NCBI RefSeq assembly: GCF_004563925.1
Contig: NZ_SPNJ01000003.1
Coordinates: forward strand, 372,001-436,000
Origin: Herbaspirillum sp. 3R11
Lineage (GTDB): Bacteria; Pseudomonadota; Gammaproteobacteria; Burkholderiales; Burkholderiaceae_D
Reading direction: 5' to 3'
Length of the DNA: 64,000 bases
Positions 24,826 through 41,546 of the stretch are shown piece after piece. Position 1 is the first letter of the stretch. The number at the start of each line of letters is the position of its first letter. Both the position numbers and the translations under genes were made by a program. Below the pieces are notes generated by a model. That model saw nothing but the letters and a program-made list of their open reading frames with translations. It had not been told where the DNA came from and did no database searches.

Positions 24826-24853
24826 GCGGTTGGCGCTTACGTTGGATGAAGAG

Positions 24854-24879
24854 GCCGCCTTTGTTGGCGGCTTTTTTTG
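24854..24879 (+). terminator. rho-independent terminator after hbdH
   Basis: The stem GCCGCC / GGCGGC with a TTTGTT loop is followed by seven Ts. Repeat copy A begins a few bases further on. Confidence 0.85.
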
Positions 24880-24884
24880 TTCTG

Positions 24885-25548
24885 TTGTTCCGACTTCGTG
24901 TGTGTTGTTGCTGAGGCTGTTCTTTCTTCGATCAACCCTTCGCCGGGGGTAGCCCGGCAGCTACTCACTTTCTTTGTCTCGCCAAAGAAAGTAAGCAAAG
25001 AAACGCGACCGCGGGATCCAGGTCCTTCGGACTTCCCGGTGCTGCGAAGCAAAAAATGGGAGGAGAAACAAACTCGCTGCGCTCAAACAAGTTTCCCCTC
25101 TTTTTCCATTTTTCGCATCGCATCACCGGCTGGCTCCAAGCGGAACGGCCAAACTGGCTCGCTGCGCATCGCCAGGGTACTGAGATGGAACGACGGTCGC
25201 AGTTCTCCACTACCAATAAAACCAAGGATGAGAATCACGATGCCGCAGGCGAGCCACCCAAGGCAATGCGAAGCGAGCCGAGGAAGAATTCCGCTTATGA
25301 GTCGCCGTTGGTGACGTGCTCAAATCGGATAAAGAAGGGAAACTTGTTTGAGCGCAGCGAGTTTGTTTCCCTTCCCGATTTGAGTGCGGCGCCAACGGGA
25401 ACCCCGAAGGGGCGGCGAATCGCGGTCGCCTTTCTTTGCTTACTTTCTTTGGCGAAGCAAAGAAAGTAAGCGGCTGCCGGGCCGCCCCCGGCAAAGGTCG
25501 ATCGAAGAGAGAACAGCCTCAGCAACAACACACACGAAGTCGGAACAA
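24885..25548. repeat. nested inverted-repeat element, copy A (about 662 bp)
   Basis: Non-coding element between convergent genes. The outer inverted repeat is about 125 bp per arm (24885-25010 and 25424-25548), starting TGTTCCGACT and ending AGTCGGAACA. Within it, 69-bp arms (24942-25010, 25424-25492) match at about 61 positions. A perfect 33-bp inner pair lies at 25065-25097 and 25337-25369, and a third pair at 25156-25173 and 25262-25279. A small hairpin is at 25402-25412. Only the central 70-80 bp are unpaired and differ from copy B. No transposase. Open frames across it are shadows. Confidence 0.9.
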
Positions 25549-40883: not shown

Positions 40884-41546
40884 TGTTCCGACTAAGGTTA
40901 GTGGTGATGGACTATTTTCTTTCTTCGATCAACCCTTCGCCGGGGGTAGCCCGGCAGCTACTCACTTTCTTTGTCTCGCCAAAGAAAGTAAGCAAAGAAA
41001 CGCGACCGCGGGATCCAGGTCCTTCGGACTTCCCGGTGCTGCGAAGCAAAAAATGGGAGGGGAAACAAACTCGCTGCGCTCAGACAAGTTTCCCCTCTTT
41101 TTCCATTTTTCGCATCGCATCACCGGCTGGCTCCAAGCGGAACGGCCAAACTGGCTCGCTTCGCATCGCCAGGGGACGGAGGTGAAATGACGGTCACCCT
41201 TCTTCGCGAACTCCACTGCCGCGACAATCACGATGCCGAAGGCGAGCCAACCAAGGCAATGCGAAGCGAGCCGAAGAAGAATTCCGCTTATGAGTCGCCG
41301 TTGGTGACGTGCTCAAATCGGATAAAGAAGGGAAACTTGTCTGAGCGCAGCGAGTTTGTTTCCCTTCCCGATTTGAGTACGGCACCAACGGGTACCTCGC
41401 GCAGCGAGGCGGCGAATCGCGGTCGCCTTTCTTTGCTTACTTTCTTTGGCGAAGCAAAGAAAGTGAGCGGCTGCCGGGCCGCCCCCGGCAACCACGGTCG
41501 TCCGAAGAAAAACACCAATCAACAAACGACCAACCCCGTCGAAACA
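40884..41546. repeat. nested inverted-repeat element, copy B (about 663 bp)
   Basis: Same orientation and length as copy A, lying between kdpC and kdpD. The left end keeps TGTTCCGACT (40884-40893) and the right end has CGTCGAAACA (41537-41546). The 69-bp arms are 40939-41007 and 41421-41489; the 33-bp perfect inner arms are 41062-41094 and 41330-41362; the third pair is 41153-41170 and 41255-41272. The hairpin at 41395-41409 (CCTCGC-GCA-GCGAGG) replaces the different hairpin of copy A. The outer 35-bp zones have diverged and no longer pair well. No transposase. Confidence 0.9.

Follow-up and report, generated by a model that had tools for sequence, protein, structure and literature searches.

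Elements A and B, two palindromic stretches in the DNA analyzed here (the window, 64,000 nt of Herbaspirillum sp. 3R11), are back-to-back pairs of one dispersed unit of ~230-300 nt. Comparison of related sequences makes it almost certain that the outward strand of this unit has been selected to fold, in 5' to 3' order, into a long hairpin (H1), a small hairpin (H3), an H-type pseudoknot (PK1) with a third strand, a hairpin (H4), a second H-type pseudoknot (PK2), and an A-rich tail. The best explanation of the whole, held at a probability of roughly 0.48, is that a structured RNA (possibly single-stranded DNA, ssDNA) forms the ends of a non-autonomous, cassette-like mobile element; a cis-acting role at mRNA 3' ends and a role as ssDNA substrate are serious rivals. 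The unit is apparently undescribed, as no description was found in the literature searched (an unnamed earlier listing in supplementary motif lists is possible). No Rfam 15 family reached its gathering score in the 64-kb window; for element A, a search at E ≤10 returned only 13 miRNA-type matches and one M23 match, all far below gathering scores.

Elements A and B and their constituent unit

Element A is situated between a 3-hydroxybutyrate dehydrogenase (bdhA-like) gene and a CNNM/PaeA-like gene, which converge on it, and element B between kdpC and a kdpD-like gene. The bdhA-like gene has a strong intrinsic terminator at 24848-24877, which ends no more than 10 bases from element A; terminator-like T-runs also precede several other copies (by sight). 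A protein-coding element was considered and rejected, as eight open reading frames (ORFs) in and around A and B are without a Pfam match (one chance match, E 0.31). This ORF check is consistent with an earlier note on this DNA, which had reported the absence of a transposase and had located both copies correctly. The same note had described a two-copy element. The genome (5.22 Mb) contains instead 15 element sites, 11 with two arms and four with a single arm, for 26 arms in all, and a core pattern, ACTTTCTTTG-N6-CAAAGAAAGT, occurs at 19 places, on both strands at each, vs. 0 for the backward control.

Two-arm copies consist of two cores of ~230 nt that read outward from the center, and single-arm copies of one core with a 5' extension and an A-rich tail (44% A, 12% T). 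A one-arm HMM finds every two-arm copy, both in the window's own genome (G000) and in the closest relative compared (G006), as a (-) match followed by a (+) match, which identifies the nested inverted repeats as two inverted copies of the unit. Thus, the nested arms reported earlier are paired unit copies rather than a selected fold. In an inverted-repeat search the arms of A extend over 194 nt (78% complementary) and 64 nt (91%), and those of B over 96 nt (77%) and 72 nt (90%). The levels are not alike in the two elements, since the outermost sequence of B is not an inverted repeat as it is in A, although the arms of B do include 40939-41010/41418-41489. The features of the two elements are as follows, with the outer limits of the units approximate.

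24885..25548, no strand assigned: element A, an outward-facing unit pair (left -, right +) with a short spacer between the 5' ends
24885..25140, strand -: left unit of A (nhmmer match and motif match), its 5' end on the 25140 side and its outward reading leftward
24942..24963, strand -: PK2 of the left unit of A (motif match), with stem 1 here UAG/CUA
24964..24995, strand -: H4 hairpin of the left unit of A (motif match)
24997..25003, strand -: third strand of the left unit of A (motif match), with the PK1 5' segment at 25005-25008
25233..25548, strand +: right unit of A, including the 5' extension and A-rich tail, a stretch also found as single-arm copies
25305..25328, strand +: 5' strand of H1, right unit of A (covariation)
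25375..25398, strand +: 3' strand of H1, right unit of A (covariation)
25402..25412, strand +: small hairpin H3, CCCCGAAGGGG, right unit of A
25426..25429, strand +: PK1 5' segment UCGC, right unit of A, whose partner is the loop GCGA of H4
25431..25437, strand +: third strand UUUCUUU, right unit of A, parallel to the purine strand of H4
25439..25470, strand +: H4 hairpin, right unit of A (5' strand 25439-25451, loop 25452-25457, purine 3' strand 25458-25470)
25471..25492, strand +: PK2, right unit of A (stem 1, 25471-25473/25482-25484; stem 2, 25476-25481/25487-25492)
40884..41546, no strand assigned: element B, an outward-facing unit pair between kdpC and kdpD
40939..40960, strand -: PK2, left unit of B (motif match)
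40961..40992, strand -: H4 hairpin, left unit of B (motif match)
40994..41005, strand -: PK1 5' segment and third strand, left unit of B (motif match)
41423..41434, strand +: PK1 5' segment and third strand, right unit of B (motif match)
41436..41467, strand +: H4 hairpin, right unit of B (motif match)
41468..41489, strand +: PK2, right unit of B (motif match)

The PK1 segment, third strand, H4, and PK2 are kept in all four units of the window, and the left units have a G in place of a C next to the PK1 segment.

The earlier note had proposed that selection acts on a long hairpin or cruciform formed between the two arms, or that gene conversion occurs between the arms of one element. Its starting point was a double change between A and B in the 33-nt arms, which are perfectly complementary within A (by sight). 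The bases are as it gave them (25086 A, 25348 T, 41083 G, and 41341 C), and the A-T to G-C change is real as far as the letters go; however, the pair falls in the loop region inside H1, outside the counted helices of the unit. Among the 19 two-arm copies of this genome and the closest relative compared, this pair is GC in 16, AT in A, a broken AC in one, and GT in one. A long inter-arm fold of one strand, if kept, would produce many G-U cells and few A-C cells. At 201 positions examined in each of 18 other copies, the inter-arm cells comprise 2971 Watson-Crick, 157 G-U, 187 A-C, and 280 other combinations (87% paired, 13% unpaired), and 126 of the 3,595 cells are double changes, some of them perhaps conversions. 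In contrast, the local helices, counted for this comparison in the right arm only (51 pairs), comprise 844 Watson-Crick, 57 G-U, 1 A-C, and 16 other (98% paired, 1.9% unpaired). The near equality of G-U and A-C between the arms, against 57:1 locally, places selection inside each unit, on the outward strand. The outcome that the earlier note took as contrary to its idea, arm differences disrupting pairing no less often than they preserve it, concerns the inter-arm pairs and not the local ones. The long inter-arm pairs behave as two diverging homologous copies. In a tree of 90 units, whose deepest split is weakly supported and whose bootstrap is not settled, the two arms fall in separate clades in 19 of 19 two-arm copies of G000 and G006, so homogenization within elements is not the main process there; the arms are nearer each other in another genome (G021) and in several copies of a further one (G017). 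Inter-arm selection or conversion is thus largely refuted, and highly improbable, as an account of these elements. The broader proposal of selection for a folded strand is strongly supported, by a route other than the inter-arm pairing.

Fold of the outward strand

The local helices were counted in 169 distinct units, taken from 191 near-full matches among 342 matches in total; the cells come from related sequences and are not independent events. H1 (24 bp) contains 3448 Watson-Crick, 286 G-U, 11 A-C, and 178 other cells, and 20 of its 24 pairs are represented by at least two Watson-Crick types. H4 contains 2127 Watson-Crick, 221 G-U (most of them from two columns), 6 A-C, and 10 other cells. 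For PK2, the counts are 642, 6, 0, and 25 in stem 1 and 980, 2, 1, and 30 in stem 2, in the same order, stem 2 being nearly invariant in this set. H2 (858, 31, 26, and 92) and H3 (639, 4, 6, and 26) are also paired, without an excess of G-U over A-C. Loop letters are conserved within the fold. In every one of the 169 units the fold of the outward strand is more stable than that of the complement, by a mean of 13 kcal/mol.

With both pseudoknots included in the structure, 40 diverse sequences were compared with shuffled controls; these are 40 of 49 representatives, the long or very diverged L053, L173:2832, L200, L047, L052, L069, L089, L092, and L112 having been omitted. The set is 90.8% paired (84.7% shuffled), with 17 doubly changed pairs (8.8 shuffled) and a covariation score of 0.226 (0.115 shuffled; 0.05-0.08 in slid controls), and for each of these three measures 0 of 500 shuffles reached the observed value. 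Further pair types number 32, vs. 27.1 when shuffled (15 of 500 reach this). PK2 stem 2 is only 74.6% paired in these 40 sequences, partly through misalignment.

A pyrimidine tract located 5' of H4 tracks the changes of the H4 purine strand in parallel, that is, as a mirror image of the H4 5' strand. Purine and third-strand variants include AAAGAAA/UUUCUUU, AAGAAAA/UUCUUUU, AAAAAAA/UUUUUUU, AAGAAAAA/UUCUUUUU, AAGAAAGA/UUCUUUCU, and AAGAGAAA/UUCUCUUU. The test used 127 distinct matches of 148, the rest being duplicates, or lacking the hairpin or a purine run of 6. Symmetry makes 77 of them blind to direction (74 exact), which leaves 50 informative; 39 of these are exact in parallel and 3 as a direct copy, and the parallel match is better in 38, tied in 12, and worse in 0. 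When the tracts were re-dealt, a mean of 16.5 and a maximum of 26 (in 1000) were exact in parallel, vs. the 39 observed. The opposite order would be expected of a direct duplication or of a second Watson-Crick partner.

The segment immediately 5' of the pyrimidine tract and the loop of H4 constitute the PK1 stem, for which a helix of at least 4 pairs (G-U allowed) can be formed in 54 of 61 distinct combinations, vs. a mean of 27.6 and a maximum of 39 in shuffled ones. From this covariation, rather than from a solved structure, the loop of PK1 is predicted to lie as a third strand on H4, with 7-8 triples. The layout would be that of a triple-helix H-type pseudoknot, in which loop 1 runs parallel to the purine strand of stem 2 and stem 1 is drawn from the hairpin loop. 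H-DNA alone was considered as a substitute. It is allowed by the mirror repeat, but would explain neither the presence of the purine strand in a hairpin of the same strand nor the pairing of the loop.

The folded strand is probably RNA. This is favored because ~7% of the H1 cells (286/3,923) are G-U, and because the one-base linker over the deep groove suits the geometry of an A-form stem. The alternative is that the outward strand folds as ssDNA and serves as the substrate of an HUH or tyrosine enzyme, like attC or the IS200/REP hairpins, with no RNA function. One DNA strand would be expected to give the same excess of G-T over A-C and the same strand-specific folding, such systems typically have paired inverted ends and spread in many copies, and the genome does contain one Y1_Tnp gene. 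On the other hand, the many G-U/G-T cells tolerated in H1 and the linker geometry fit ssDNA less well, and the Y1_Tnp locus is without a unit. An ssDNA site lacking any RNA function is accordingly judged unlikely, even as one of the two serious rivals.

Distribution, orientation, and neighborhood of the unit

An exact core 33-mer occurs in 75 stretches of named genomes, whose carriers include Undibacterium, Noviherbaspirillum, Herbaspirillum, Collimonas, Neisseria, Deefgea, Silvimonas, Variovorax, Polaromonas, and Actinobacillus. At the DNA level, with only some of the first-pass candidates scored per genome, matches were obtained in 30 of 34 genomes of the genus and in 87 of 195 genomes (27 of 44 genera) of the family. 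With the RNA model at E ≤1e-4, 81 of 369 genomes and 66 of 272 sampled genera of the class have a match, as do 60 of 398 genomes and 40 of 213 genera of the phylum, where the CM E-values are rough and weak matches in another class may be due to chance. One comparison used 96 sources (the window and 95 of 287 loci); this set omitted the named-genome loci L038-L112, since retrieval by a single exact core precludes variation there, as well as many overlapping or same-genome loci. Spread by plasmids was rejected, as a 316-nt query matched just three plasmid records in short pieces, and so was spread by phages or through E. coli, since the 83-nt core at E 1e-3 has no match in E. coli genomes or phages.

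A trans-acting small RNA or ribonucleoprotein scaffold, present in many copies, would account for the complexity and conservation of the fold and for the conserved loop letters. However, copy number and sites vary, 4 of the 34 genomes of the genus have no match, and a pattern scan detected no sigma-70-like promoter in or around A, all of which make such an RNA quite improbable.

Orientation is strongly biased. Among 45 pairs of neighboring units ≤3 kb apart, 39 face outward, six are in tandem, and none faces inward; two inward pairs occur in one further genome (G922). The named-genome loci are outside this census, and L268, L270, L273, and L277 were omitted from it as repeats of other loci, which for L268 drops one outward pair of 1.8 kb. 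In one genome (G884 C8:268935-270066), four units are arranged (-)(-)(+)(+), a doubled outward pair. The model matches are 326-563 nt apart in 31 of the 39 outward pairs, which leaves no space for a gene beside the unit ends; seven pairs have 858-1261 nt between matches, and that of L268 has 1.8 kb. Of 11 pairs from other genera with 0.7-1.8 kb between the units, a small and non-random sample, eight enclose a convincing gene and three (L272, L331, and L332) do not. The enclosed genes, named by sight where no family match is given, are the following.

L268: methyltransferase (defense library: methyltransferase region of mad2, 51.5 bits)
L269: small membrane-like protein
L270: lipoprotein-like pieces
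L271, 1653-2351: HEPN_AbiU2 (104.2 bits), alone between outward units
L173, 1796-2530: bSEFIR (255.6 bits), alone between outward units
L243: ion-channel domain
L247: unknown
L330: lipoprotein-like gene

The bSEFIR and HEPN_AbiU2 cargos are anti-phage types. A defense library searched with the eight single-gene cargos matched only L173 (bSEFIR) and L268, and L271 had no match there. The GC content of the space is below that of the flanks in 9 of the 10 pairs measured (L272 was not included, and for L330-L332 the unit ends were left in the measured stretch), including all eight with a gene, in which the drop is 0.05 to 0.19; the exception is L332. Two other spaces, L081 and L218, contain divergent gene pairs (NMO and TetR; SDR and a 298-aa ORF) with a GC content near that of the flanks, and each gene reads out into a unit in the sense direction.

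The sites themselves are extragenic in all 27 cases from two species (crude gene caller), with one apparent overlap of 38 nt. At L212, L214, L215, L222, and L226, in other species of the genus, the unit is immediately preceded on its 5' side by another hairpin repeat (variants of CACTGGGTCCCAGCGTTCGCTGGGACGACGG). For 17 single units, stretches of ≤8 kb on the 5' side contain a partner in three and none in 14, four of the stretches ending at contig ends. All eight single units of two species (four per species, with largely shared flanks and a crude gene caller) sit 75-111 nt past the stop codon of a same-sense gene. These single units fit a cis-acting RNA element at the 3' end, similar to REP/BIME, at least as well as mobile ends. 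Such an element would be transcribed at the end of an mRNA, where its triplex and pseudoknots would block exonucleases or aid termination, and its spread, like the rearrangements, would be a side effect of homology. Agreeing with this role, the 11 two-arm copies of this genome are mostly at gene 3' ends (five convergent, four co-directional, one divergent, and one unclear), the genes enclosed in L081 and L218 read into units in sense, and a single-unit site has similar flanks in at least three species (by sight). However, an ordinary terminator comes before element A (24848-24877), and the near arm of a two-arm copy is antisense to the gene that reads into it. A 3'-end role also leaves the outward bias (39:0) without a reason and does not predict cargo of deviating GC content. 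On balance it is an unlikely, if serious, rival.

Comparison with G006 (12 sites) indicates that the DNA around the elements has been rearranged. Nine of the 15 sites have both flanks beside an element of G006, with the same flanks joined at three and divided between different elements at six; of the remaining sites, two have one flank there and four have none. The matched 2-kb flanks are unbroken in 18 of 20 cases. Site A of G006, flanked by bdhA and the CNNM gene, holds a 5.3-kb segment that in the window's own genome lies between two elements on contig 1. Much of this rearrangement would follow from homologous recombination between copies. At element B, kdpC of G006 (near 1176590-1178180) also adjoins an element, and only a 31-nt piece of the kdpD part has a match in that genome. 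G006 additionally contains two near-identical duplications, L228/L229 and L230/L231 (2.9 kb at 99.4% and 3.4 kb at 99.7%), both of which begin at an element (one within ~40 bp of the element's edge, the other inside a two-arm copy); neither ends at one.

The sites compared yielded no clean empty site, target duplication, or excision product. Three candidates for a clean insertion were rejected: at L117 the sequences flanking a 13-kb stretch (12.6 kb and the element itself) are joined in the relative, separated by ~155 bp, and at L123 and L120 the match stops within ~60 bp and ~2 kb from the element, respectively. A MITE would have terminal inverted repeats and a target-site duplication and be tied to an autonomous transposon; short shared ends, TTGTTCCGACTT / AAGTCGGAACAA, were recognized by sight at many Herbaspirillum copies, with no empty site found. 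No recombinase or transposase accompanies the units in searches for the Y1_Tnp and RVT_1 families. A RAYT link was rejected, because no unit matches at E ≤1 in the 3.3-kb locus of the genome's single Y1_Tnp (PF01797) gene. Spread by reverse transcriptase, or kinship with retrons and other RT-linked ncRNAs, was rejected as well, RVT_1 having no match in this genome or in the other unit carriers G006, G009, G014, and G017; 13 of 34 genomes of the genus have one.

A mobile-end role was chosen because a pure 3'-end role offers no reason for the outward orientation, the cargo, or the shared ends. Taken by itself, the proposal that an outward pair constitutes the two ends of a mobile element falls somewhat short of even odds. 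In this proposal, the pair would serve as the two ends of a non-autonomous, cassette-like element, each end's fold being recognized by a machine acting in trans. Most pairs, A and B among them, leave too little room between the ends for a gene, but others could hold a cargo gene, anti-phage types included. Homologous recombination among copies would relocate, duplicate, and split neighboring segments. The strongest evidence against mobile ends is that 8 of 8 single units examined in two species follow a same-sense gene, that most sites of one of these species also hold an element in the other, and that no enzyme or clean excision was found. More tentatively still, these elements may represent a new class of mobile gene cassette in Beta- and Gammaproteobacteria, in which single genes, anti-phage ones included, are framed by outward copies of an RNA with a covarying triplex pseudoknot and a second pseudoknot, and are moved or exchanged by a trans-acting machine that recognizes this fold, with A and B as cargo-free members.

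Comparison with known systems

Integron attC sites are structured and strand-specific and lie beside single genes that are often AT-rich or defense-related; their core boxes are RYYYAAC/GTTRRRY. The units described here are likewise structured, strand-specific sites next to single genes. They differ from attC in facing outward on both sides of the gene, and in their ends, GTCGGAAC (by sight), which do not fit RYYYAAC/GTTRRRY. If it is true that the fold marks the ends of a cargo element, this would be a new route for the spread of genes, defense genes included.

Telomerase RNA and SAM-II contain H-type pseudoknots with a loop-1 triple helix, and the triple-helix pseudoknots known so far that are mentioned here belong to ligand-binding or template RNAs, not to dispersed repeats. 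The guanidine-III riboswitch is also described as a pseudoknot with a triple helix, in which a loop lies along a stem (PMC5696562). By covariation, the unit shares this loop-1 triplex layout; in contrast, it is multi-copy, has a predicted 7-8 triples, and carries a second pseudoknot next to the first. It is unusual for a triple helix of 7-8 layers to be read solely from parallel covariation, and this one would be joined with two pseudoknots in a repeat of dozens of genera that has no Rfam match. If the unit protects 3' ends, it would be a bacterial counterpart of the triple helices that confer stability.

REPs, REPINs, and BIMEs are dispersed extragenic repeats, often arranged as inverted doublets, whose palindrome is kept despite sequence variation (PMC2817692; PMC3116915). 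REPs are short hairpins, most of those listed starting with GTAG, and the RAYT gene is flanked by two of them (PMC2817692; PMC3116915). The unit resembles them in being extragenic and in forming inverted doublets (39 of 45 neighboring pairs outward). It differs in its length of ~230-300 nt with two pseudoknots and a triplex, and in the only Y1_Tnp gene being without flanking units. A conserved GTAG-type foot is also absent, as the corresponding letters of the unit covary with their partners and are unconserved: among 169 units, columns 182/195 are CG in 83 and TA in 81, and columns 183/194 are GC in 110, AT in 48, and CG in 6.

The MRSC-65-2 motif, a very abundant structured repeat that is thought to be selfish, is a single long stem with UYCCGG repeats, and 250 mobile or repeat candidates are counted in the same work (PMC11109978). 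Both MRSC-65-2 and the unit are repeated structured sequences, and the text describing MRSC-65-2 mentions neither a pseudoknot nor a triplex. Whether the unit marks mobile ends or protects 3' ends, these genomes now offer one class of intergenic palindromes that can be tested as an RNA. The organization of the unit resembles that of REPINs and BIMEs and of the mobile or repeat candidates (PMC11109978), and its fold does not match the one described for MRSC-65-2.
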